Of a stretch of 32,816 nucleotides of DNA, positions 1,283-28,852 are shown piece by piece (within the stretch, counting starts at the first letter, position 1; every line of letters begins with the position of its first letter). The stretch comes from Alphaproteobacteria bacterium (GTDB lineage Bacteria; Pseudomonadota; Alphaproteobacteria; ATCC43930; CGMCC-115725). The stretch covers positions 1 through 32,816 of the forward strand of contig JAFAOB010000274.1 in assembly GCA_019238055.1 (NCBI GenBank). The letters run 5' to 3'. The position numbers were made by a program, and so were the translations under genes. A model generated the notes under the pieces. It saw only the letters and a program-made list of their open reading frames with translations, was not told the origin of the DNA and searched no databases.

Positions 1283-2362
1283 ATGGCGGTATCCGCACGG
1301 GGGGCCCAATGGGGACGGACCATCGAGCGACCGAACGAAGCCTGGCTCGCCCGCCAAACGGCAGAGCCGATCCTTGACCCCGATCTGCCGATCGTCGACC
1401 CGCATCATCATTTCTGGGATCGGCCCGCTGAGCGCCCCGGCCATCGCTATCTGCTTGATGAATTGCTCGCCGACATCGACACCGGGCACAATATCGAGGC
1501 AACGGTCTTTCTCGAATGCCGCTCGATGTATCGCGCTGGCGGCCCACCCGAACTGCGCCCGGTTGGCGAAACCGAATTTGTCACCGGGCTCGCTGCGATG
1601 AGCGACAGCGGCGGCTATGGCAAGACGCGGGTTGCCGCGGGTATTGTCGGTTTTGCCGATCTGACCCTGGGCGACCGGGTCGAGCCGGTACTCGAAATGC
1701 ATATCCGCGCCGGCGGCGGACGATTTCGCGGCGTACGCCATTCGGCGGGCTGGGATCAGAGTGAAACGATCGGCAATAGCCGTGCCGACATGCAGCCGGG
1801 TCTTTATCAGCGAGCGGATTTCCGCGCCGGTTTCGCCCGTCTGATCGGGCGCGGCCTGTCGTTCGACGCGTGGCTGTACCATCCGCAGCTCGGCGATGTC
1901 GTCGACCTCGCCCGCGCCTTTCCGACCGCACCGATCGTGATGGGCCATGTCGGCGGCGTTCTTGGCTATGGCCCCTACGCCGGCAAAAAGGACGAGGTGT
2001 TCGCCGATTGGAAGCGGTCCATGGCAGCCCTCGCCGCCTGCCCCAATGTCTCGGTCAAGCTCGGCGGGCAGATGCGGCGGCTGGCTGCATTCGATTACAG
2101 TGCTGCCGCGATGCCGCCGACCTCCGAGCAGCTTGCCGGCTATTGGCGGCCTTACATGGAGACCTGCATCGAATTGTTTGGCGCACGTCGCTGCATGTTC
2201 GAAAGCAATTTCCCGGTCGAAAAGGTCGGGACCGGCTATGCCGTACTGTGGAATGCGTTCAAGCGGATCGCCTCAGGCACCTCTCCCGAAGAGAAACGCG
2301 AACTTTTCGCCGGCACCGCCCGCCGCTTCTACCGCCTCGATCACAGCGAGCTACAACAATGA
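1283..2362 (+). CDS. Amidohydrolase family protein (metal-dependent hydrolase, TIM barrel)
   Basis: Contains LPIVDPHHHFWDRP, IVMGHVGG, ARRCMFESNFPVEK; AGGAGG ribosome-binding site at 1271-1276 positions the start at 1283. Confidence 0.85.
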   Translation: MAVSARGAQWGRTIERPNEAWLARQTAEPILDPDLPIVDPHHHFWDRPAERPGHRYLLDELLADIDTGHNIEATVFLECRSMYRAGGPPELRPVGETEFVTGLAAMSDSGGYGKTRVAAGIVGFADLTLGDRVEPVLEMHIRAGGGRFRGVRHSAGWDQSETIGNSRADMQPGLYQRADFRAGFARLIGRGLSFDAWLYHPQLGDVVDLARAFPTAPIVMGHVGGVLGYGPYAGKKDEVFADWKRSMAALAACPNVSVKLGGQMRRLAAFDYSAAAMPPTSEQLAGYWRPYMETCIELFGARRCMFESNFPVEKVGTGYAVLWNAFKRIASGTSPEEKRELFAGTARRFYRLDHSELQQ

Positions 2363-3717
2363 GTGACGAACTGCCGACCGCGGCGCGGGTCTCGGATCCG
2401 GGGGTCCGCGCCCTTTATGCCCAGGAAAACCGCTGGCAGGCCTGGCTCGATGTCGAGGCGGCCTTGGCCAAAGCCGAGGCCGAGCTCGGCATTATCCCGA
2501 AAGAGGCGGCCGACGCAATCGCGCCCAAGGCCCGGCTCGAACTTCTCGACCGCGCCCGCATCGATGAGGGCTTTGCCCGCACCGGCCATACGATCGTGCC
2601 GCTCGTCTGGGAATTGTCGCGGGTCGTCGGCGAGCCCCATGGCGGTTGGGTGCATTGGGGGGCAACAACGCAAAACATCACCCAGACCGGCGATCTCTTG
2701 GTTCTGCGCCAGGCGCATCGGGTTTTTCTGCGGCTGATCGGCGAAGCGCTAAAAGCGATGGCTGATCTGGCCGAACGCGGCGCCGACATGCCGATCGCCG
2801 GGCGCACCCATGGCCAGCACGCGGTGCCGGCGACCTTTGGCTACAAGCCCGCGGTGTGGATCGATGAGATGATCCGTCACATCGAGCGGCTGCGCCAAGC
2901 GGCGCCGCGCATCTTTGTCGCGATGCTCGGCGGCGGTGCAGGCACCTTTGCCTCGCTCGGTACGCAAGGCCCTAAAGTGCAGGAAGGGATCGGCCGCCAG
3001 CTCGGCATGCTGCCGATGCGGGTGCCGGCGCGGACGATTGGCGATCATCTCGCCGAAAACATCTGCCTCTTTGGTCTCGTCGCCGCGACCTGCGCCAAGA
3101 TCGCGCGCGAAATCTATACCTTGATGAAAACCGAGTTCGGCGAAGTCGAGGAGCCGGTGCCGCCGGGAACGGTCGGCAGCTCGACAATGCCGCAAAAGCG
3201 CAATCCGAAGCTGTGCCAGGACATCATCGCCGCCGCTGCGGAAGTGCGCGCCTGCGTGCCGCTTGCCCTTGAAGCAATGCAGACCGAGCATGAGGCCGAC
3301 CGCACCACAAGCCTGATCATGGAGGCGGCCGAGGCGCGCGCCGCGATCGCAATGGGCGACATGCTGGCCCGCCTCGTCGAGGTGCTGCGCGGGCTGCGGC
3401 TCGACCCCGCGCGCATGCGCAAGAACCTCGATCTCGGCGGCGGTCTGATCATGGCCGAGGCGGTCATGCTGAACCTCGGCGCCGCAATCGGCCGCCAGCA
3501 TGCGCACGACGTGGTTTACGACGCAGCCCAGGCGGCTTTTATCGAGGACCGCCCCTTTGCCGAACTGCTCGCCGCCGATCCGCGCGTCTCGGCGCATCTC
3601 GATCGCGCGGCGATCACGAAGCTACTCGACCCGACCGCCTACACCGGGCTCTGTGCCGAGATGGCGCGCGATGCCGCCCAGCGCGCCCGCGCCGCCGCCA
3701 CCGAGATCGCAGGTTAA
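2359..3717 (+). CDS. Adenylosuccinate lyase / 3-carboxy-cis,cis-muconate cycloisomerase superfamily protein
   Basis: Superfamily signature GSSTMPQKRNPK plus GRTHGQHAVPATFGYK and WGATTQNITQTGD; start ATG overlaps upstream stop (ATGA). Confidence 0.85.
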   Translation: MSDELPTAARVSDPGVRALYAQENRWQAWLDVEAALAKAEAELGIIPKEAADAIAPKARLELLDRARIDEGFARTGHTIVPLVWELSRVVGEPHGGWVHWGATTQNITQTGDLLVLRQAHRVFLRLIGEALKAMADLAERGADMPIAGRTHGQHAVPATFGYKPAVWIDEMIRHIERLRQAAPRIFVAMLGGGAGTFASLGTQGPKVQEGIGRQLGMLPMRVPARTIGDHLAENICLFGLVAATCAKIAREIYTLMKTEFGEVEEPVPPGTVGSSTMPQKRNPKLCQDIIAAAAEVRACVPLALEAMQTEHEADRTTSLIMEAAEARAAIAMGDMLARLVEVLRGLRLDPARMRKNLDLGGGLIMAEAVMLNLGAAIGRQHAHDVVYDAAQAAFIEDRPFAELLAADPRVSAHLDRAAITKLLDPTAYTGLCAEMARDAAQRARAAATEIAG

Positions 3718-3756
3718 ACGACCTCGACTTCGGTGGGCGACACTGCCGCGATTTGG

Positions 3757-5292
3757 TCAGTGGGCGACCATGTGATCGCCATCCCCATGCTGGGCCCGGC
3801 GGAAGAACAGCAGCAGCGGAAAGGCGGCCAGAGTGAGAAACATCAGCAGCCGGAAATCGTCGATATAGGCGATGATCTGCGCCTGGGTTGCGATCGTGGC
3901 GTCGAGTGCGGCGCGGCCCGCGGCGGTGTAGGGGTTCCAATAATGCGCAATCGCCGGGTTTTGCAGCGCCCGGTTGACCGGGTTTACGTAGGAGGTGATG
4001 TCGGCATTGTTGATCTGGGTGAAGGTCACGAGCAGCGCCGAGACGATCGATGTGCCGACACTCGACCCGAGATTGCGCGCCAGATTGTAGAAGCCCGCAC
4101 CTTCGGTGCGGCGTTCGGGGGCCAGGGTTGCGAGCGTGGTCACGCTTAGCGGCACGAACAGAAATCCCATTCCAGCACCTTGGACAATGCCGTTGATGCC
4201 GACCGTCCATTCCGAGATGCTGGGAGTCCAGTTGCTCATATCCCACATTGCCCAGGCGGTCAGCGCGAGCCCGATGCCAAGCAACACGCGCGTGTCGACG
4301 CGCCCGATCAAGCGGCCCACGATCAGCATCGCGAACAATGTGCCGACACCACGCGGCGCCATCGCAAATCCCGCCGTCAGGATCGGGTAACCCATCAAGT
4401 CCTGCAAGTAGAGCGGCAACAGCGCCAACGGCGCGAAAAAGACGACGCCGATGATGAAAACAAAAAGCATTCCAGCCGAAAAATTTCGGTCGCGAAACAG
4501 TCTTGGATCGACAAACGGCGACTTCGTCGTAAAGGTATGCGCCAGAAACAGCCAAAACGCCGATGCGCTGACGACGGCCAGAATGATGATTTCGCCGGAG
4601 CCGAACCAATCGAGCTCCTCGCCTTGGTCGAGCAAGACCTGCAATGCCCCGACTGCGACGCTCAGCATGGCAAAGCCGAACCAGTCGAGTTTGCCATGTT
4701 GCCGTTCAGTTTCGGGAAGAAACATGATCATTCCGATAAAGGCGAGCGCCCCGATCGGAAGATTGATGTAAAAGACCCAACGCCAGCTGTAGTTGTAGGT
4801 TAGCCAGCCGCCGACGATCGGCCCGATGATCGGACCGATCATGATCGCCATGCCCCAATAGGAAATCGCCGCGCCCTGACGCTCGGGCGGATAAATGTTC
4901 ATCAGCACCGATTGCGACAATGGCACGAGCGCCGCGCCGAATGCGCCCTGGAGCAGGCGGAACAGCACGATTTGGGTCAGCGAGGTAGCCATGCCGCACA
5001 GCATCGAGGCTACCGTGAAGCCGACGATCGAGACCAAAAACAGGCGCCTGAGACCAAAACGGCCGGCAAGATAACCGGTCGGCGGCGTCATGATTGCGGC
5101 GGCGACGATGTACGAGGTCAGAACCCACTCGATCTCGTCCTGATTGGCCGCCACACTGCCCTGGATGTAGGGCAGCGAGACATTGGCGATCGTCGTGTCG
5201 AGCGCCTGCATAATGGTCGCGAGCCCGACGCACGCCGTGATCGCGAAGCGGTTGGGGGCTGCTGCCGGGTGCGCGGTGTCGGCTGCTGCCAT
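3757..5292 (-). CDS. DHA2 family (EmrB/QacA-type) MFS efflux transporter
   Basis: 511 aa; LDTTIANVSLPYIQGSVAANQDEIEWVLTSYIVAAAIMTPPTGYLAGRFGLRRLF; many hydrophobic segments; paired with HlyD-type gene. Confidence 0.92.
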   Translation of the reverse strand: MAAADTAHPAAAPNRFAITACVGLATIMQALDTTIANVSLPYIQGSVAANQDEIEWVLTSYIVAAAIMTPPTGYLAGRFGLRRLFLVSIVGFTVASMLCGMATSLTQIVLFRLLQGAFGAALVPLSQSVLMNIYPPERQGAAISYWGMAIMIGPIIGPIVGGWLTYNYSWRWVFYINLPIGALAFIGMIMFLPETERQHGKLDWFGFAMLSVAVGALQVLLDQGEELDWFGSGEIIILAVVSASAFWLFLAHTFTTKSPFVDPRLFRDRNFSAGMLFVFIIGVVFFAPLALLPLYLQDLMGYPILTAGFAMAPRGVGTLFAMLIVGRLIGRVDTRVLLGIGLALTAWAMWDMSNWTPSISEWTVGINGIVQGAGMGFLFVPLSVTTLATLAPERRTEGAGFYNLARNLGSSVGTSIVSALLVTFTQINNADITSYVNPVNRALQNPAIAHYWNPYTAAGRAALDATIATQAQIIAYIDDFRLLMFLTLAAFPLLLFFRRAQHGDGDHMVAH

Positions 5293-6683
5293 TACCTGCT
5301 CGCCTCAGGGCGGCCGGCCCCATTACTGCTGCTCAAAGGTGGGTGAGCGGCCTTGCCGTTGGTGGTAGGGCCGGGCCCTTTGCCGCTTGTTGGAGGGGCG
5401 TTAGCCGGATTGGGCATTGGGCTGCCGGAGTTTGCACCGTTCCCCCCGCTCCCGCCACCAAACAGCCCTGTGAGAAAATGCGGCAGACCACGCTTGTGGC
5501 CGGTGTGGACCGAGACCTCGGCGCTCATACCCGCGCGCAGCGGCGGATTGTCGCGCAACGAGGCGCCATTGATGGCGACGCGCATCGGGATGCGCTGGAC
5601 GACTTTGACCCAGTTACCGCTCGTGTTTTCCGCGGGCAGCAACGAGAACTGCGAAGCCGCTGCCGGTCCGAGGCTTGCAACCTTTCCGTGCCAAGTATGC
5701 CCCGGATAGGTGTCCACGGTGATTGTGGCCGGCTGGCCGGCGCGCACATAGGTCAGTTCGGTTTCTTTCGGCTGCGCCTCAACCCAGACCCGGTGCGTAT
5801 CGACGAGGTAGAAACCAGTCGTCGACGCCGTCAGATACATCCCGGGCCGTAACGCGTCGACATGAGTGACGGTGCCGGGGAATGGGGCACGGACCACGGT
5901 ATCGTGCAACTCACGTGCGTCCTCGTTGCGCGCCGCGAGCGCTTGGCGATAGGTCGGATACTGATCGAGTGCAATGTTCGGATTGCCGCCCAGATTAGCC
6001 ACGATCCCCGCCAACTGATGCTTCAGCGAAGCCAGTGATTGTTCCGCGTTTTGCAGATTGACACGGGCCTGATCGACTGCTGCTTGTGCAGCGAATCCTT
6101 TTGTTGCCAAAATAGCCTGGCGCTCATATTGACGTTGGTTAAACGTTACCTGGTCTTGGGCCTGGACTATCTGAGCTTCCACGCTTTGATAATTCTGTTT
6201 AAGCGCGCGGAAATTGTCGGCAACTACGCCGAGCTGGGCTTGAGCTTGGTCCAATTTGAGCTGGAAGGGTGCCGGGTCGAGTTGGAACAGGACCTGTCCT
6301 TTGGTGACCTGCTGGTTGTCTTTGACGTCGACGGATTGGACCATGCCGGACACATCGGTTGATAGCCCGACCTGGTCGGCCTCGACATAGGCGTCGTCGG
6401 TCGTCATGTAGGCGCCGCCCTTAAAATAAAAGTAGGCGCCGACAATCAGTACGACCGGCAGCAGCGCAAACAGCGCCCAACGCAGCCAGCGTCGGCGCCT
6501 CGATATCGGCTGCTCCTCCGCCGCAGGTCGTTCCGCCTGCGGCCCTTGCTGTTCCCGCAGCGGCGCAACGGGCGCCGGCCTCCGATCCGTTGGCGCTCGG
6601 CGCCTTTCAGGGGCGCCGCGGGCTTGCGCAGGCGCTTCGAGAACATCCGCGCCCTGCAAGCCCGGGTCGCGGTCATAGGGCAT
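5292..6683 (-). CDS. HlyD/EmrA family membrane fusion protein (efflux periplasmic adaptor)
   Basis: One TM near the N terminus, then YMTTDDAYVEADQVGLSTDVSGMVQSVDVKDNQQVTKGQVLFQLDP and a coiled-coil region; start codon abuts/overlaps the MFS gene layout. The ORF track start (6806) is probably too far upstream. Confidence 0.9.
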   Translation of the reverse strand: MPYDRDPGLQGADVLEAPAQARGAPERRRAPTDRRPAPVAPLREQQGPQAERPAAEEQPISRRRRWLRWALFALLPVVLIVGAYFYFKGGAYMTTDDAYVEADQVGLSTDVSGMVQSVDVKDNQQVTKGQVLFQLDPAPFQLKLDQAQAQLGVVADNFRALKQNYQSVEAQIVQAQDQVTFNQRQYERQAILATKGFAAQAAVDQARVNLQNAEQSLASLKHQLAGIVANLGGNPNIALDQYPTYRQALAARNEDARELHDTVVRAPFPGTVTHVDALRPGMYLTASTTGFYLVDTHRVWVEAQPKETELTYVRAGQPATITVDTYPGHTWHGKVASLGPAAASQFSLLPAENTSGNWVKVVQRIPMRVAINGASLRDNPPLRAGMSAEVSVHTGHKRGLPHFLTGLFGGGSGGNGANSGSPMPNPANAPPTSGKGPGPTTNGKAAHPPLSSSNGAGRPEASR

Positions 6684-6786
6684 AATCTCTCCTTGCTTCG
6701 TTGATTGACGAATTCCTTTGCCAAGGTGTTGATGGAGAAGGAAAGGAAAATCCCATGACGATTGCATTCGGTATTGAAGAGTTTTC

Positions 6787-7734
6787 ATGAAGCGCCGCGG
6801 TGACATTTCCGCGCTGATGGCGTTCGTTGCGCTGGCGGATCACCTCAATTTCCGGGTTGCGGCGGCACGTCTGGGCGTCACACCTTCGGCCCTCAGTCAT
6901 ACGATCAGACAACTTGAGGAACGCTTGGGCGTGCGGCTGCTCAACCGTACGACCCGAAGCGTGTCCCTGACCGATGCCGGGCTTCGTCTGGTCGAGCGGC
7001 TGCGGCCCGCGGTCGACCAGATCTCGGCGGCGCTCGAAGACCTTGGGGAGGAGCAGAGCCGGCCCTTCGGGCGATTGCGGCTCTATGCGACGCATTCGGC
7101 CGCCGCAGCGGTTATCGTGCCGGTCTGGGCGCGGTTTTTATCGACCTATCCCGATGTTCATCTTGAACTGCACCTCGACGAGGCGCCGACCGACATTGTC
7201 GCGAAAGGCTTTGATGCGGGCATCGGGCCGCAGGACCGCGCCGACGCCGATATGGTCGCTGTTCGTGTTACCGGCCCAATGAAATTGGCAGTCGTCGGCT
7301 CTCCCTCGTATTTCGCCCGAAAACGGCCGCCACGTGTTCCCGAGGACCTCACCAGGCACGACTGCGTGCAGTATCGGCGCATCGCCGAGGGCGCCACGAT
7401 CGAGTGGCCATTCGAACGCGCCGGCAAGTCGCTGCGGATTTCGGTCGATGGACGGGTGACCGTCAATGATCCCGAACTGGCGCTGAGAGCCGCCGTCGAT
7501 GGGCTCGGCATCGCCTATACGATCGAGTCTTTGGCCGAGCCGTTCCTGCGCTCGGGGCAACTCGCGCGCACGCTGGAGGAGTGGTCGATCTCGTTTCAGG
7601 GGCTTTATCTGTATTATCCCGGGCACCGGCAAGTGCCGGCGGCGCTGCGCTGCCTGATCAATATGATCCGCGCCGGGCCGCGTGCGAAACCCGCCTCGGG
7701 TCTACACGACAGCACCTTCGCCGCTGCGGATTGA
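6787..7734 (+). CDS. LysR family transcriptional regulator
   Basis: N-terminal HTH: ISALMAFVALADHLNFRVAAARLGVTPSALSHTIRQLEERLGVRLLNRTTRSVSLTDAG. Confidence 0.93.
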   Translation: MKRRGDISALMAFVALADHLNFRVAAARLGVTPSALSHTIRQLEERLGVRLLNRTTRSVSLTDAGLRLVERLRPAVDQISAALEDLGEEQSRPFGRLRLYATHSAAAAVIVPVWARFLSTYPDVHLELHLDEAPTDIVAKGFDAGIGPQDRADADMVAVRVTGPMKLAVVGSPSYFARKRPPRVPEDLTRHDCVQYRRIAEGATIEWPFERAGKSLRISVDGRVTVNDPELALRAAVDGLGIAYTIESLAEPFLRSGQLARTLEEWSISFQGLYLYYPGHRQVPAALRCLINMIRAGPRAKPASGLHDSTFAAAD

Positions 7735-17738: not shown

Positions 17739-18416
17739 ATGCCGACATTTCCGGGGCAGGTGCTTTGCACAACCGGGCTCTTGGCCGAAGCGAGAATTGC
17801 ACGGGCCGCCGGTTTTTCGACTGTGGTTGGCGGCGGAGACCGCCACCGCACCGCGGCGCTCGTCGAACGCGCAGTGCGGCATGCGAACTGCCTTGTCAGC
17901 TTTGGCATCGCCGGTGGCCTCGCGCCGCAGTTGCGCGCGGGCGACGTCGTCATTTCCACCGAGGTGCTGGCTGACGGTGATCGCTGGCAAAGCGAAGAAG
18001 CATTTCGCACTCGGATCGCGGGGCTTGCGGCCAAGATCGGTGCCGTCGAAGGTCCGGTGCTCGGAACCTCGAGGGTCATGGCCAGCACCGACGAAAAGCG
18101 CCGAACCTGGGACGAGACAGGCGCACTCGCCGCCGATCTCGAAAGCGATGTTGTGGCGCGTATCGCCGAATCGGCCGGTATTCCGTTCGTCGTCGTGCGC
18201 ACAATCGCAGACAGCGCGTATCGGGCGCTGCCGCCGGCGGCGCTTATTCCATTGGGCGCAAATGGCACCCCAAAATTGGCTCGGGTGCTCGCCTCGGTAG
18301 CGCGCCGCCCGCGGCAAGTCGCGGCGCTGGTCGGGTTGGCGCGCGAAACCCGGACCGCGCTGGCGGCGCTAGTGCTGCCCGCCCGCGCTCTGCACGGTCT
18401 CGTCGCGGCGGTCTAA
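17739..18416 (+). CDS. hpnG: Hopanoid-associated phosphorylase / purine-nucleoside-phosphorylase-like HpnG
   Basis: LCTTGLLAEARIARAAGFSTVVGGGD, LVSFGIAGGLAPQLRAGDVVIS, ALAADLESDVVARIAESAGIPFVVVRTIADSA; follows shc. The ORF is open from 17631, but the conserved part fits the start at 17739. Confidence 0.87.
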   Translation: MPTFPGQVLCTTGLLAEARIARAAGFSTVVGGGDRHRTAALVERAVRHANCLVSFGIAGGLAPQLRAGDVVISTEVLADGDRWQSEEAFRTRIAGLAAKIGAVEGPVLGTSRVMASTDEKRRTWDETGALAADLESDVVARIAESAGIPFVVVRTIADSAYRALPPAALIPLGANGTPKLARVLASVARRPRQVAALVGLARETRTALAALVLPARALHGLVAAV

Positions 18417-20668: not shown

Positions 20669-21814
20669 ATGAGTTTGGGAATGGGTTCGGCTCTCCCGAT
20701 TGTTGCCGTGGTCCTCGCCAGCTGGCTTTGCCTCGGCGGTCAGGTGCTGGCCGCCCTTCGCTTCGCCCGGCGGCCGCTTGCGGGCGCGGAAACGGGTAAG
20801 CAGCCGCCGGTTTCCATCCTTAAGCCTCTGCATGGCGCCGAGCCTGGGCTTTACGAGAACCTCCGTTCATTTGTCGAGCAGGACTATCCGTCGGTCCAGA
20901 TCGTGCTCGGCGTCAACAGCCCGCAAGACGCGGCGCTCGAGGCCGCACGGGTGCTGATCCGCGACGTCCCCGAGACCGATATCGCGCTCGTCGTTGACAG
21001 CCATATCCGCGGCAGCAACCAAAAGGTCTCCAATCTCGAAAACATGCTGACGGCCGTGCAGCACGACACGTTGGTCCTGGCCGACAGCGACATGCGGGTC
21101 GATCGAGGCTATCTCGATGCGGTGACGGCACCGCTGCGGGATTCGCGAATCGGCGTCGTGACCTGCCTCTACAAAGGCGTCTCGACCGGTGGGCTGTGGT
21201 CGGATTTGGGCGCATTGCAGATCAATTTCGCATTCCTGCCGAATGCGCTCTTAGCCGATGCATTGGGGATCGGGGGCGGCTGTTTTGGCGCCACGATCGC
21301 GCTCACCCGTGCGACTCTCGGCCGCATCGGCGGCTTTGCACCATTTCGCGACGAGCTCGCCGACGACCATCGATTGGGCGACGCCATTCGAGCAGTTGGG
21401 CTGGACGTGATGCTGTCGCGCTACCTCGTCGAGGACCTGGTGTACGAGCCGAGCTTTGCCGCACTTTGGCGGCACGAGCTGCGCTGGGCGCGTACAATGC
21501 GCGGACTGGCGCCGATCGGATATGTCGGATCGGTCGCGACCCACCCGCTGGCGATCACCTTCTTCGCCGCCGCAGCGAGCGGCTTCGCAGCAGGCGCTTG
21601 CCTGCTGTTCGCGGTCACTTTGCTGTTGCGATGGGCCGCAGCGGGAGCCGTCGCGCGAGCTCTCGGGCTGTCGACAACGCGATTGTGGCTGTTGCCACTG
21701 CGCGATGGCTTGTCCTTTTCCGTGTTTGTCGCCAGCTTTTTTGTTCGGCGCGTCCGGTGGCGGGACCTCAGCCTCGATGTCGCACCAAATGGTCGCATGA
21801 CCGTCGCCGATTGA
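20669..21814 (+). CDS. hpnI: Hopanoid biosynthesis glycosyltransferase HpnI (GT2, ceramide glucosyltransferase-like)
   Basis: PVSILKPLHGAEPGLYENLRSFVEQDYPSVQIVLGVNSPQDAALE, LADSDMRVDRGYLDAV, EDLVYEPSFAALWRHELRWARTMRGLAP. Confidence 0.92.
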   Translation: MSLGMGSALPIVAVVLASWLCLGGQVLAALRFARRPLAGAETGKQPPVSILKPLHGAEPGLYENLRSFVEQDYPSVQIVLGVNSPQDAALEAARVLIRDVPETDIALVVDSHIRGSNQKVSNLENMLTAVQHDTLVLADSDMRVDRGYLDAVTAPLRDSRIGVVTCLYKGVSTGGLWSDLGALQINFAFLPNALLADALGIGGGCFGATIALTRATLGRIGGFAPFRDELADDHRLGDAIRAVGLDVMLSRYLVEDLVYEPSFAALWRHELRWARTMRGLAPIGYVGSVATHPLAITFFAAAASGFAAGACLLFAVTLLLRWAAAGAVARALGLSTTRLWLLPLRDGLSFSVFVASFFVRRVRWRDLSLDVAPNGRMTVAD

Positions 21815-21828
21815 GTAAGGGTATTCTG

Positions 21829-23253
21829 ATGAAGACCTTGTTCCTGCATCCGCCGTCCTTCGACGGCTTTGATGGCGGCGCTGGTTCGCGTTATCAGGCG
21901 CGGCGCGAGATCCGCTCGTTCTGGTATCCGACCTGGCTCGCTCAGCCGGCCGCATTGGTTCCCGAGAGCCGCCTCGTCGATGCGCCGCCGGCAAAGCTCA
22001 AACTCGGCGATGTTCTGCCGCTCGCCGCCGATTACGAGCTGGTTGTCCTGCACACCTCGACCCCGTCCTTTGCTTCGGATGTCAGGGTCGCCCAAGCACT
22101 GAAGGACGCCAATCCGCGCCTGAAGATCGGCATGGTCGGCGCCAAAGTGGCGGTCGAACCGGAGGAGAGCCTCCAGGCGTCATCCGCTCTCGACTTTGTC
22201 GCCCGCGAAGAATTCGATTTCACGATCAAGGAGGTCGCCGAGGGCCGAGCCTTCGATGCGATCGACGGCCTCAGCTATCGCACGCCGAGCGGCACCATCA
22301 GCCACAATCGCGATCGCGCGATCCTCGAAGACATGGACCAGCTGCCGTTTGTCAGCGCGGTCTATAAGCGTGACCTCAAGATCGAAAACTATTTTATCGG
22401 GTATTTACTGCATCCGTATCTGTCGCTCTACACCGGGCGCGGCTGCCGCTCGAAATGCACGTTTTGCCTGTGGCCGCAAACGGTCGGGGGGCATCGCTAC
22501 CGGGTGCGCAGCGTCGCTCATGTCGTCGAAGAGATCCGCCTCGCCAAGAGCTGGTTTCCGCAAGTAAAGGAGTTTTTCTTCGACGACGATACCTTTACCG
22601 ACGACCGGCCGCGCGCCGAGGCGATCGCCCGCGAGTTGGGCAGGCTCGGCGTCACCTGGTCGTGCAATGCCAAGGCGAATGTGCCGCGTTCGACCCTCGA
22701 GATTCTGCGCGACAACGGGCTGCGGCTGTTGTTGGTCGGGTACGAGACCGGTAACCAGCAGATCCTCAACAACATTAAAAAGGGGATGCGGATCGATATC
22801 GCGCGCCGCTTTACCAAGGATTGTCACGAGCTCGGGATCACGATCCACGGCACCTTTATTCTCGGGCTGCCCGGCGAGACCAAGGAGACGATCGAGGAGA
22901 CGATCCGCTTTGCCGGCGAAATCAACCCGCACACGATCCAGGTATCGCTCGCCGCCCCTTATCCCGGAACCTATCTCTATCGCCAGGCGGTCGAGAATGG
23001 CTGGCTTGATACGAGCCATGCCGAATTGATCGACGATCACGGGGTGCAGATAGCACCCTTGCATTATCCGCACCTGTCGCACACCGAGATCTTTGAGTCG
23101 CTCGAAACCTTCTATAAACGTTTCTATTTCCGCCGCCGGAAAATTGCCGCGCTGGTCGCCGAAATGATCAAGAGCCCGCAAATGATGCGCCGGCGGCTGC
23201 GCGAGGGTGTCGAGTTTTTCCAGTTTCTGCGCAGTCGCGAGATGACCGGCTGA
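21829..23253 (+). CDS. hpnJ: Hopanoid biosynthesis radical SAM protein HpnJ (B12-binding-domain class)
   Basis: MKTLFLHPPSFDGFDGGAGSRYQARREIRSFWYPTWLAQPA; radical SAM GRGCRSKCTFCLWPQTVGGHRYR; follows hpnI by 14 nt. The ORF track start (21196) overlaps hpnI and is not used. Confidence 0.94.
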   Translation: MKTLFLHPPSFDGFDGGAGSRYQARREIRSFWYPTWLAQPAALVPESRLVDAPPAKLKLGDVLPLAADYELVVLHTSTPSFASDVRVAQALKDANPRLKIGMVGAKVAVEPEESLQASSALDFVAREEFDFTIKEVAEGRAFDAIDGLSYRTPSGTISHNRDRAILEDMDQLPFVSAVYKRDLKIENYFIGYLLHPYLSLYTGRGCRSKCTFCLWPQTVGGHRYRVRSVAHVVEEIRLAKSWFPQVKEFFFDDDTFTDDRPRAEAIARELGRLGVTWSCNAKANVPRSTLEILRDNGLRLLLVGYETGNQQILNNIKKGMRIDIARRFTKDCHELGITIHGTFILGLPGETKETIEETIRFAGEINPHTIQVSLAAPYPGTYLYRQAVENGWLDTSHAELIDDHGVQIAPLHYPHLSHTEIFESLETFYKRFYFRRRKIAALVAEMIKSPQMMRRRLREGVEFFQFLRSREMTG

Positions 23254-23398
23254 ACGCGGTCCTTTACAAGCGCGCACCGGCCGCGATGATCCAATCGAAT
23301 ACGCGGTCTCTTTCTTACACCATTGTGGATAGGCTTGCGGGCTCTGCTGTTCACGCAAATCAGACATTTGTTTTGGCTCAAGGCTCAAGGAGCAGCGG

Positions 23399-24331
23399 AT
23401 GAAAGTCGGAATTATCGGTGCGGGGGCGGTAGGCGCAGCCTGTCTGACCGCCTTGATCACCCGCGGCTGTGCCCGGGAGATCGTCGTTGTCAATCGTAAT
23501 CGGGAACGGGCGCGCGGATTGGTAACTGACGCGCGATACGGGGCCGTGCTGCTTCCCGCAATCGAGCTTCGCGATGGAGACTATGCCGATCTTAAAGATG
23601 CGGATTTGATCCTGCTGACTGCCGGTCTCAATGAAAAAACCGGTGGCGCCACCGACCGTAGCGATCCTCGCGGCCGCCTGCGTCTGCTCGATGCCAATGT
23701 CGCCGCCTACAAGGAAATCGTCCCTCGTTTGCATGCGGCGGCGCCGCAAGCAATGGTCCTCGTTGTCACCGATCCGCCCGATCCGCTCGCCGACGTCGTA
23801 CGCATGCTGGGTCACGAACGGGTTCTCAGCACCGGGACCTATCTCGACAGCCTGCGTTTCCGCTATCATTTGGGGCGGCGGCTCCGCGTCAGCCCGGCGA
23901 GCGTCGAGGCGCAGGTTTTGGGCGAGCACGGAACTTCTGAAGTCTTCGTGTGGTCCTCGGCCCGCATCGCTGGAGCGCCCGCGCTCGAGCTGTTGGCAGA
24001 ATCCGAAGACGATCGCGCAAAGCTCAGCAAGGACATCGAAGACGAGGTGCGCTATGCGAATATCGCGATCATTGAGGGGATTGGCGCGAGCCAGCATGGC
24101 ATCGGCATGGTTTCGGCGCGGATCGCTGAAATCGTGTTGCGCGACGAGCGGGCCGTGATCCCGATTGGTTCTTTCAACCATCGGTACGGTGTCACACTTA
24201 CATTGCCGAGTGTTCTGGGTCACGACGGCGCCATCGAGATCTGCGAGCCTGCAATGTCCGAGGGTGAGCGCCAAGCGTTGCAGCGCAGTGCCGAGACACT
24301 CAAATCGGCAATCGAGCAGATCAGGATTTGA
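23399..24331 (+). CDS. Lactate/malate dehydrogenase family protein (atypical)
   Basis: Rossmann MKVGIIGAGAVGAACLTALITRG; LDSLRFRYHLGRRL; VLGEHGTSEVFVWSSA with catalytic-type His; IGSFNHRYGVTLTLPSVLGHDG. Confidence 0.87.
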   Translation: MKVGIIGAGAVGAACLTALITRGCAREIVVVNRNRERARGLVTDARYGAVLLPAIELRDGDYADLKDADLILLTAGLNEKTGGATDRSDPRGRLRLLDANVAAYKEIVPRLHAAAPQAMVLVVTDPPDPLADVVRMLGHERVLSTGTYLDSLRFRYHLGRRLRVSPASVEAQVLGEHGTSEVFVWSSARIAGAPALELLAESEDDRAKLSKDIEDEVRYANIAIIEGIGASQHGIGMVSARIAEIVLRDERAVIPIGSFNHRYGVTLTLPSVLGHDGAIEICEPAMSEGERQALQRSAETLKSAIEQIRI

Positions 24332-24360
24332 GACGAGCTTCCGCGCCTCGGACACAACCT

Positions 24361-24372
24361 GGAACCGGTTCC
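24361..24372. promoter_or_regulatory. Perfect 12-bp palindrome GGAACCGGTTCC upstream of hpnK (candidate operator or part of a terminator)
   Basis: Direct reading; immediately followed by a second short palindrome CCCCGGTCGGGG-like (ccccggtcgggg). Confidence 0.35.
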
Positions 24373-24428
24373 CCGGTCGGGGCCTATGATAATCGGGCGT
24401 TGGCCGGCTCGCCGTCGGTCGAGCCGCG

Positions 24429-25295
24429 ATGCGGCGGCTGATCGTCTGCGCCGACGATTTCGGGCTCGACACCGCGGTCAATGCGGCGGTCGAGGAAGGG
24501 CACAAGCGCGGCATTTTATCGACCGCGAGCCTGATGGTCGGTGCGCCGATGGCAGCCGATGCCGTCGAACGAGCCCGCTGCCTCCCCGAATTGCACGTCG
24601 GTCTCCATCTCGTGCTGGTCGATGGCCAGCCCGTGAGCCCGCCAGAGAACGTGCCGGGATTAGTCGGACGCGACGGCCGCTTTCTCTCGAATATGGCGCG
24701 GGCCGGCTTTCGGTTCTTCTTTCGCCCCGATATCAGGCGCCAGCTCGCGCACGAGATTAGAGCCCAGTTCGAGGCGTTTCACGCGACCGGCCTCGATCTC
24801 GATCACGTCAATACCCATAAGCACATGCATCTCCACCCGACGGTTGCCGATCTGATCCTCAAAATTGGGCGCGATTATCGCATGCGGTCGATGCGGGTCC
24901 CGGCCGAGCCGCGGGCGCCGCTGCGCCGCGCCTTCCCGCAAGAGCGCACTCCGCCCGTACTGTACCGCCCGTGGGTCGAGCGCCTGCGCCGCCGCCTGCG
25001 TGGCGCCGGGATGGTGGTCAACGACCATGTCTTCGGTCTCGCCTGGAGCGGCAGGATGGTTGAGGAACGGATATTGCGGCTGCTGCCATATCTGCCCGAG
25101 GGCGTCAGTGAGATTTATTGTCACCCGGCGACCGAGCGCAGTCCGGCGCTGGCCGCAGCGATGCCCGAATATCACCACACCGAGGAATTGGCGGCCTTGA
25201 CGAGCCCCGCGATTGCCGCCCGGATCGCAGCCCTCGGCATCGAGCTTTCGACCTACAGCGCGCTCGCCAGCTGGGCTGGAGGGTGCTCGCCGTAG
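24429..25295 (+). CDS. hpnK: Hopanoid biosynthesis deacetylase HpnK (YdjC/ChbG family)
   Basis: MRRLIVCADDFGLDTAVNAAVEEGHKRGILSTASLMVGAPMAADAVERAR, LHVGLHLVLVDGQPVSPP, DLDHVNTHKHMHLHPTVADLI. Confidence 0.94.
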   Translation: MRRLIVCADDFGLDTAVNAAVEEGHKRGILSTASLMVGAPMAADAVERARCLPELHVGLHLVLVDGQPVSPPENVPGLVGRDGRFLSNMARAGFRFFFRPDIRRQLAHEIRAQFEAFHATGLDLDHVNTHKHMHLHPTVADLILKIGRDYRMRSMRVPAEPRAPLRRAFPQERTPPVLYRPWVERLRRRLRGAGMVVNDHVFGLAWSGRMVEERILRLLPYLPEGVSEIYCHPATERSPALAAAMPEYHHTEELAALTSPAIAARIAALGIELSTYSALASWAGGCSP

Positions 25296-25471: not shown

Positions 25472-28400
25472 ATGGATGTCGGGGGTTGGCTCAGAAGTCT
25501 CGGCCTCGGACGGTACGAGGCGCTCTTTCGCGCGAGTGAAATCGACGCCGATATCCTGCCGGAGCTGACCGACGTCGACCTCAAGGAGCTTGGTGTGCCG
25601 CTCGGGCACCGCAAGCGTCTCCTTAGGGCCATCTCCGGCTTGGCCGTCGCGGCGACATCGGCGGCGCCCTCCGGTTCGACCGACGCGAAGCCCCATGACG
25701 CCGCCGAACGGCGGCAGCTCACCGTGATGTTCTGCGATCTGGTCGGCTCGACGGCGCTGTCGCGGCAGACCGATCCCGAGGATCTGAACACGCTGATCGG
25801 CACCTACCATCGTGCCGTTGCCGAACGGGTCGGGCGGTTCGGCGGCTACGTCGCCAAATACATGGGCGACGGCGTGCTGATCTATTTCGGCTATCCGCAA
25901 GCCCATGAGGACGATGCAGCGCTGGCGATCCAGGCCGGTCTGGCGATCCTCGACGCGGTTCCCGGCTTCACCGCGGCAGCAGCGGCGGTAGCGCAGCCGC
26001 AAGTGCGGATCGGCATCGCGACCGGCCTTGTCATCGTCGGCGAGCTGATCGGCGAGGGCGTGGCGCAGGAGCGAAACGTCGTCGGCGAGACACCCAACCT
26101 GGCGGCGCGGCTGCAAAGCCTCGCCGATCCCGGCACGCTGGTAATCGCCGAGACCACCCATCGCCTCGCCGGTGGCCTTTTCGAGTACCGCGACCTTGGG
26201 TCGGTCAGCCTCAGAGGCTTCGCCGAGCCGGTGCCGGTCTGGCAGGTGTTGCGGCCGAGCACCGCCGAAAGCCGCTTCGAGGCGGCGCGCCGACGGATCA
26301 CCGATCTCGTCGGGCGGGCGGCGGAGAGTGCGATATTGCGCGACCGCTTGCGCCGGGCCTGGGCCGGCGCCGGCCAGATTGTCCTGCTCTCGGGCGAAGC
26401 CGGCATCGGCAAGTCGCGGCTCGCCGCTCAGCTCGCCGCCGAGGTCGCGAGCGAGCCGCATACGCGGCTGCGCTATCAATGCTCGCCCTATCATCGCGAC
26501 AGCGTCCTGCACCCCTTTGTCGTGGCGCTCGGACGCGCCGCCCGCCTCGCCCCCGACGACCCGGCGGAGACGCAGCTCGACAAGCTCGAAGCCATCTTGG
26601 CGCCGGCGCGGATCGTTGAAACCGCACCGCTCTTCGCTTCCCTGCTGTCGATCCCGACCGGCGAGCGCTACCCGCCGCTCGCATTGAGTGCCGCGCAGCA
26701 GCGGCGGCTGACCCTCGCGGCCCTGCTCGACCAGCTCGAAGCATTGGCGCGGGCAAAGCCGGTATTGATGCTGTTCGAGGACGTCCACTGGGCCGATGCG
26801 ACCTCGCTCGAAGTGCTCGATCTGACGGTCGAGCGCGTCCGCGCCTTGCCGGTATTGGCGCTCTTCACCTTCCGGCCGGAATACGAGGCGCCCTGGACCG
26901 GGCTCTCTCACGTCACCAGCATCGTACTCGACCGCCTGGCTCCCGCCGAGGTCGCGACCCTGGCCGGGCATGTCGCCGGCCGGAAGCTGCCCCCCGAGGT
27001 GACGGCGCAGATTGTCGCCAAGACGGACGGGGTGCCGCTCTTTGTCGAGGAACTGACCAAGACGGTGCTGGAATCGGGCCTCCTGATCGAGGGGTCACAG
27101 GGCTGGCGCCTCAACGGTCCATTGCCGCCTTTCGCGGTCCCTGCGACGTTGCAGGATTCATTGGCGGCCCGTCTCGACCGGCTGGCGCCGGTCAAGGAGG
27201 TGGCGCAGATCGGCGCCGCGATCGGCCGCGAATTCTCCTACCCGCTGCTGCGCGCGGTCGCCGGCCGCGACGAGCCGGCATTGCGCGCAGCATTGGCGCA
27301 GCTAGAAAAGGCGGAGCTTCTGTTCCGCTCGGGCATGCCGCCCGATGCGCGCTACACCTTCAAGCACGCGCTGGTCCAGGAGACGGCCTACGAAACCCTG
27401 CTCAGGAGCCGGCGGCAGATCCTGCACCGGCAGATCGCCAATGCCTTGCGCGATCAGTTCCCGGCGATCACGGTGGCCGAGCCGGAACTCGTCGCCCATC
27501 ATCTGACCCAGGCCGGGCTCGACGAGCCGGCGATCGAATGGTGGGGCAAGGCCGGCGACCAGGCCTCGCGCCGTTCGGCGTTTAAGGAGGCCGCCGCCCA
27601 TCTCGGCAAAGCGGTCGAATTGGCCGACAAGGTTGCTGCGACGGCGCCGAGAGCCGCGACGGGCAGCAACCGGCTGCGTCTACAGACGAGTCTCGGCAAT
27701 GCGCTGATCTGGGCCAAGGGACAACACGCGCCGGAAACGAGCGCAGCCTTTGAGCGCGCCCGCGAATTGGCGAGCCGGGAGGAAGACGTTTCGGAGCGTT
27801 TCTCCGCCTATTACGGTCTATGGCTGGGGCATCAGACGAGCGGCGAACCCGAGCCGATGCGCGAAATGGCGCAGCTTTTCCTACGCGAAGCTGCGGCCCG
27901 GCCGGATTGTCCCGAGAGCTTAATCGCGCACCGCATTTCCGGCTCGACCTGCTTCTATTTCGGCGACTTTGCCGGCGCCCATCAGCATTTTCAGGAGACT
28001 GTCGAACTCTACGACCAGGCACGGCATGGCGATTTCGCCAACCGGTTCGGCTGGAATCCCCGCATTGTAGCGGAGATAATCGACGCCCTCACATTGTGGG
28101 TGCTCGGTCGAATCGACGAGGCTTTGCGCCTTGCCGACCGCGCCCTCGCCGACGCCGAGTCGGCAGCGCATGCTCCGACGATGGGTCATGCGGTCGCATT
28201 CGCGGCGCTGCTAGGGCTTGTTCGCTGCAATCCCGAAGCGGTCGCGACCTATGGCCAAGGGCTCGCCGATATCGTGTCTCGATGCTATCTCGCAGCCTTT
28301 TGGGGTGGCATGGCGGTATTTTTTCAGGGCTGGGCAAAATCCTCCGACTCCGCCGATGAGTCGAGACTTGCCGAGATGCGACGCGGCCTCGCCATCCGTC

Positions 28401-28852
28401 GGGAGCAAGGCAATGTTTTTCTCCTGCCCAGTCTCGAAGCGGCCCTGGCCGAAGCCGAAGCGAGGACCGGCGAGACGGATGCCGGGCTCCGCCGCCTGGA
28501 CGATGCGCTCGCCGAGCTGGGGCGCACCAAGGAGCGTTGGTACGAAGCGGAGATGCACCGCATTCGCGGCGAGATCCTGCTGCAGCGCGACCCGGCTAAT
28601 ACCGCGGCGGCCGAACAGGCTATGCAGGCCGCGATCGCTATCGCGCAGTCGCAAAAAGCGCGCAGCTTCGAACTGCGCGCCGCGTTGGCTCTGGCGAAGC
28701 TTTACCGCGCGGCCAGTCGCGACGCCGATGCCCACGCCGTGCTGGCGCCGGCGCTCGAGGGCTTCCCGCCAACCCGACAATTCCCCGAACTCACCGAGGC
28801 GCAAACCCTCCTCACGGCGCTAGTCCCTCGGTGCGAAAGTCCGCGCATATGA
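25472..28852 (+). CDS. SAM domain + class III adenylate/guanylate cyclase + AAA ATPase + TPR-like signalling protein
   Basis: SAM-like MDVGGWLRSLGLGRYEALFRASEIDADILPELTDVDLKELGVPLGHRKRLLRAI; cyclase AERRQLTVMFCDLVGSTALS...KYMGDGVLIYFGYPQAHEDDA; P-loop LLSGEAGIGKSRLA; Walker-B-like LMLFEDVHWAD; C-terminal alpha-helical repeats. 1126 aa. Confidence 0.92.
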   Translation: MDVGGWLRSLGLGRYEALFRASEIDADILPELTDVDLKELGVPLGHRKRLLRAISGLAVAATSAAPSGSTDAKPHDAAERRQLTVMFCDLVGSTALSRQTDPEDLNTLIGTYHRAVAERVGRFGGYVAKYMGDGVLIYFGYPQAHEDDAALAIQAGLAILDAVPGFTAAAAAVAQPQVRIGIATGLVIVGELIGEGVAQERNVVGETPNLAARLQSLADPGTLVIAETTHRLAGGLFEYRDLGSVSLRGFAEPVPVWQVLRPSTAESRFEAARRRITDLVGRAAESAILRDRLRRAWAGAGQIVLLSGEAGIGKSRLAAQLAAEVASEPHTRLRYQCSPYHRDSVLHPFVVALGRAARLAPDDPAETQLDKLEAILAPARIVETAPLFASLLSIPTGERYPPLALSAAQQRRLTLAALLDQLEALARAKPVLMLFEDVHWADATSLEVLDLTVERVRALPVLALFTFRPEYEAPWTGLSHVTSIVLDRLAPAEVATLAGHVAGRKLPPEVTAQIVAKTDGVPLFVEELTKTVLESGLLIEGSQGWRLNGPLPPFAVPATLQDSLAARLDRLAPVKEVAQIGAAIGREFSYPLLRAVAGRDEPALRAALAQLEKAELLFRSGMPPDARYTFKHALVQETAYETLLRSRRQILHRQIANALRDQFPAITVAEPELVAHHLTQAGLDEPAIEWWGKAGDQASRRSAFKEAAAHLGKAVELADKVAATAPRAATGSNRLRLQTSLGNALIWAKGQHAPETSAAFERARELASREEDVSERFSAYYGLWLGHQTSGEPEPMREMAQLFLREAAARPDCPESLIAHRISGSTCFYFGDFAGAHQHFQETVELYDQARHGDFANRFGWNPRIVAEIIDALTLWVLGRIDEALRLADRALADAESAAHAPTMGHAVAFAALLGLVRCNPEAVATYGQGLADIVSRCYLAAFWGGMAVFFQGWAKSSDSADESRLAEMRRGLAIRREQGNVFLLPSLEAALAEAEARTGETDAGLRRLDDALAELGRTKERWYEAEMHRIRGEILLQRDPANTAAAEQAMQAAIAIAQSQKARSFELRAALALAKLYRAASRDADAHAVLAPALEGFPPTRQFPELTEAQTLLTALVPRCESPRI

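Follow-up and report, generated by a model that had tools for sequence, protein, structure and literature searches.

The window analysed here, a stretch of 32,816 nt, is a single contig (G000:C203) of an alphaproteobacterial draft genome of 4.72 Mb, which is about 91% complete and divided into 516 contigs. It carries an hpn cluster in which hpnI, hpnJ, a lactate dehydrogenase (LDH)-like gene and hpnK follow one another in that order on the + strand. The three hpn genes score well above the cut-offs of their models: the glycosyltransferase gene hpnI (20669–21814; TIGR03472, 418 bits against 310), hpnJ, whose radical SAM product acts in the cyclitol-ether step (21829–23253; TIGR03471, 825 bits against 578), and the deacetylase gene hpnK (24429–25295; TIGR03473, 394 bits against 233). 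In the positions of hpnC, hpnD and hpnE, the cluster has two genes of the squalene/phytoene synthase family and one for an amine-oxidase-family flavoprotein; it also contains a putative squalene-hopene-cyclase-like gene, named by sequence, as well as hpnH, ispH and an hpnG that scores slightly below the cut-off of its model. hpnH and ispH are oriented opposite to the remaining cluster, and hpnG (+) and hpnH (−) converge with their 3′ ends overlapping by 48 bp (18369–18416). Downstream of hpnK, on the + strand, lies a gene (25472–28852) whose product, of 1126 aa, combines a SAM (sterile alpha motif) domain with nucleotide-cyclase and AAA ATPase domains.

The LDH-like gene occupies positions 23399–24331 (+) as an intact frame of 310 codons that starts with ATG and is preceded by a good Shine–Dalgarno sequence, AAGGAG, at 23387–23392. 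Its 310-aa product matches both domains of the LDH/malate dehydrogenase (MDH) superfamily in Pfam (Ldh_1_N, E = 1.6e-21; Ldh_1_C, E = 3.2e-26) and has the catalytic residues Arg109, Asp168, Arg171 and His195 that define the superfamily. The sequence-only reading had placed a dehydrogenase-like gene between hpnJ and hpnK at exactly these coordinates, and the domain matches together with the flanking hpn models bear it out. Compared with its two closest homologues, the gene has a dN/dS of approximately 0.09, with dS near saturation, which argues for a real gene under purifying selection rather than a chance open reading frame.

Within the superfamily, the protein falls on the LDH side, in an unusual branch. 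Its best NCBIfam match, the L-LDH model TIGR01771, gives 242.5 bits, below the cut-off of 303.55, and all MDH models remain far below theirs. In a phylogenetic tree, the branch forms a clade with 100/100 support on a long stem among bacterial LDHs, although the point at which so long a stem joins its neighbours may be unsure, and it is separate from the MDH-like genes carried by nearly all genomes of the order. The structure model, with a mean pLDDT of 92.4, is matched best by a Thermus LDH (TM-score of about 0.87). The catalytic residues, Arg93 (R109), Asp150 (D168), Arg153 (R171) and His177 (H195), are invariant in the LDH alignment. At specificity position 102, the protein has Glu79, neither the Gln of canonical L-LDHs nor the Arg of MDHs. 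Between Glu79 and Arg93, eight extra codons (23648–23671, +) add residues 84–91 (ATDRSDPR) to the active-site loop. This insertion and Glu79 mark the branch, and the insertion occurs in no other aligned LDH (37–42% identity); the lowest-confidence block of the structure model, residues 81–90, lies within the inserted loop. Further, Asn32 takes the place of the ribose-binding Asp of most aligned LDHs, so use of NADPH is possible. In apicomplexan LDH, the insertion displaces residue 102 from the active site (PMC4109310), and for this reason nothing firm about the substrate can be read from Glu79.

The position of the gene between hpnJ and hpnK is not conserved. We surveyed 43 genomes of the order, comparing hpnJ and hpnK positions and reading the junctions. 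In the 18 other genomes that have the two genes together on one contig, 2–312 bp separate them and no dehydrogenase intervenes; the widest junction, of 312 bp (G006), is rich in GC and gave no match to an LDH. In the remaining genomes of the order, hpnJ and hpnK are far apart or on separate contigs. A class-wide sample of 385 genomes gave 21 further close junctions, 19 of them direct and 5–188 bp wide. The other two hold hpnI (G224) and, in a genome of a different family (G087:C345; locus L139, 8707–9777), a macro-domain gene with a small open reading frame that has no Pfam match; in one genome of this sample (G098), hpnJ and hpnK are 12 kb apart. Across the 18 order-level and 21 class-level junctions, none of the 39 contains an LDH. 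The sequence-only reading had proposed a survey for conserved hpnJ–LDH–hpnK synteny; we saw the arrangement in this genome only, and the conserved association with hpn genes expected of a hopanoid component does not appear. In the closest relative by HpnJ (92%; G008), a genome only 79% complete, the hpnJ contig stops 627 bp past the gene, with neither an LDH nor hpnK, the hpnK contig breaks inside hpnK, and we found no member of the LDH branch.

Homologues of the gene lie elsewhere. The branch is present in 6 of the 43 genomes of the order, whereas a full-length close HpnJ is present in 30. Among the genomes with the nearest homologues, one (G005) has two copies, of 73% and 72% identity; others have homologues of 71% (G024), 65% (G040), 61% (G037) and 57–61% (G006), and two Ramlibacter metagenome-assembled genomes have homologues of 63–64%. 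The G024 copy (L109, 2301–3099) and the G006 copy (L110, 3042–3780, at a contig end) have broken frames, either as pseudogenes or through assembly errors; the G006 copy also shows the loop insertion. The two G005 copies (L105, 429–1358; L106, 64–993) are 81% identical and similar just upstream, with different downstream neighbours; they either arose by duplication or come from variant strains merged in one bin. In the locus stretches examined for this set (about 60–73% identity), no hpn genes lie near the homologues; the neighbours include genes for a malic enzyme (G024), a dCTP deaminase (G037), a LysR regulator (G006) and an alpha/beta hydrolase (one G005 copy). Outside the order, the class sample contained nothing above 42% identity, and among 399 genomes sampled across the phylum no additional branch member appeared at E < 1e-58, indicating that the branch is rare.

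The spacers on the two sides of the LDH-like gene, of 145 bp after hpnJ (23254–23398) and 97 bp before hpnK (24332–24428), show no similarity beyond chance to the other loci retrieved for relatives. When the boundaries of the gene were searched for traces of a mobile element, only short, chance-like repeats turned up, and a search of plasmids returned only LDHs below 60% identity. The first spacer contains a weak promoter-like site (23263–23290), and a search of the + strand between hpnJ and the LDH-like gene showed no terminator-like site, so the two may be co-transcribed. With the shared strand and short spacers, co-transcription with hpnJ and hpnK together is possible as judged from sequence; transcription may run into the gene from hpnJ or start in the gene's own upstream region.

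Relatives with adjacent hpnJ and hpnK lack the gene at this junction, and some have it at other sites, so that it is in all likelihood a passenger unrelated to the cluster. We put at roughly 0.85 the probability that it is a 2-ketoacid/2-hydroxyacid dehydrogenase unconnected with hopanoids, which in this lineage was inserted, or relocated, to a place between hpnJ and hpnK and has no role in the head group. The possible co-transcription with its neighbours, which leaves some room for a role newly acquired in this one lineage, and the breaking of the G008 contigs at the junction count against this. An arrangement seen only once, on one contig of a 516-contig draft, might also reflect an assembly or binning artefact, in which a contig join placed a foreign LDH between hpnJ and hpnK. 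Such an error would, however, need two joins within intergenic DNA, and we consider it very unlikely: the window contains no N, the edges carry no long repeat, the composition is similar (GC of 0.60 in hpnJ, 0.61 in the LDH-like gene and 0.66 in hpnK), and the closest relatives of the LDH are in the same genus.

A rival reading gives the gene a hopanoid function. The gene is intact and under purifying selection, encodes an altered substrate loop, and lies on the same strand within the hpnI–hpnJ–hpnK module, possibly co-transcribed with it; the hpn operon of this lineage could have recruited an oxidoreductase that tailors the composite hopanoid head group. We hold this to be highly improbable, given that the synteny is not conserved and that homologues exist without hpn neighbours. 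In LDH chemistry, the arginine at position 171 binds the carboxylate of the substrate; the conserved Arg153 therefore implies a carboxylate substrate, and the aminocyclitol head group has no carboxylate. BHT-glucosamine is an isomer of the cyclitol ether, and the head-group route therefore has no net redox step left to fill. According to the published account, HpnI, HpnK and HpnJ alone convert BHT to its cyclitol ether in three steps, and no further enzyme is needed (PMC12583986). We found no literature linking an LDH to hpnJ or hpnK. The reduction of ribosylhopane to bacteriohopanetetrol has no assigned gene (PMC12583986), and a reductase-like gene in an hpn cluster could be the missing enzyme. 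That it is so here seems to us extremely improbable: most genomes of the order that have hpnJ lack the branch, so the gene cannot be a general ribosylhopane reductase, and ribosylhopane again offers Arg153 no carboxylate. Thus, between the two options left by the sequence-only reading, a head-group redox enzyme or an insertion, the junctions without an LDH (0/39 with one) and the homologues in unrelated places favour the insertion and speak against the head-group enzyme. The gene thereby drops out as a head-group enzyme of hopanoids, tempting though it was as a candidate. Location inside an hpn cluster is by itself no evidence of a role, as the unrelated macro-domain gene of G087, in another family, indicates that the hpnJ–hpnK junction accepts unrelated genes.

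If the gene is a passenger, its product would be an NAD(P)-dependent enzyme performing ordinary LDH chemistry on a 2-keto acid/2-hydroxy acid with altered side-chain selectivity. His177 and Asp150 would form the proton relay, Arg153 would bind the substrate carboxylate and Arg93 would polarise the carbonyl, while the enlarged loop, with its eight extra residues and Glu79, would select neither pyruvate nor oxaloacetate but a different substrate. Three loci suggest a candidate. In G040, genes for an FAD-SLDH subunit, a GMC oxidoreductase and a cytochrome c lie upstream of the LDH-branch gene, and in both Ramlibacter loci the LDH-branch gene is followed by genes for gluconate-2-dehydrogenase subunit 3, a GMC oxidoreductase and a cytochrome c. 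These three-part FAD (GMC)/cytochrome c sugar-dehydrogenase loci (PF12318 or PF13618) span 2168–7042 of the alphaproteobacterial L107, and 3991–8526 of L006 and 6001–10824 of L007 in Ramlibacter. From this adjacency to membrane gluconate/sorbitol-dehydrogenase-type genes, the extended-loop branch could conceivably be a new specificity class of the LDH fold, reducing a 2-keto sugar acid (for example, 2-ketogluconate) alongside periplasmic GMC/cytochrome c sugar dehydrogenases; the present copy would then have reached the hpn operon by chance. We regard this proposal as doubtful: across the order, neither PF13618 (gluconate-2-dehydrogenase subunit 3) nor PF12318 (FAD-SLDH) correlates with the branch, which leaves the proposal with the three loci described, two of these in a single genus.

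Hopanoids aside, the gene represents a rare and unstudied branch of LDHs whose substrate loop is enlarged, and this branch can be set beside several known systems. Canonical bacterial L-LDHs (TIGR01771; Thermus 3vpg and 2e37, Deinococcus 2v6b) are like it in fold, share about 36–42% identity and have all of its catalytic residues. The gene product differs from them in its score below the TIGR01771 cut-off, the eight-residue loop insertion, Glu instead of Gln at 102, HGT instead of HGD after the catalytic His, and Ser instead of Thr at 246. In the clade of bacterial L-2-hydroxyisocaproate dehydrogenases (HicDHs), residue 102 is neither Gln nor Arg, the loop carries insertions and the other catalytic residues are kept (PMC4109310). 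By that description, our protein matches the HicDH pattern at position 102, in the insertion between 102 and 109, and in Arg109, Asp168, Arg171 and His195; its nearest solved chains, by contrast, are ordinary LDHs. FrsC, the phenylpyruvate reductase of FR900359 biosynthesis, likewise belongs to the LDH/MDH superfamily and has an extended substrate loop (PMC9299796). Unlike the gene described here, which is on the LDH side and has no conserved link to a cluster, FrsC derives from MDH and acts in the pathway of its own cluster. Finally, compared with the known hpnI–hpnJ–hpnK cyclitol-ether module, the locus has all three genes present and intact, and differs by one extra, most probably unrelated, gene between hpnJ and hpnK.
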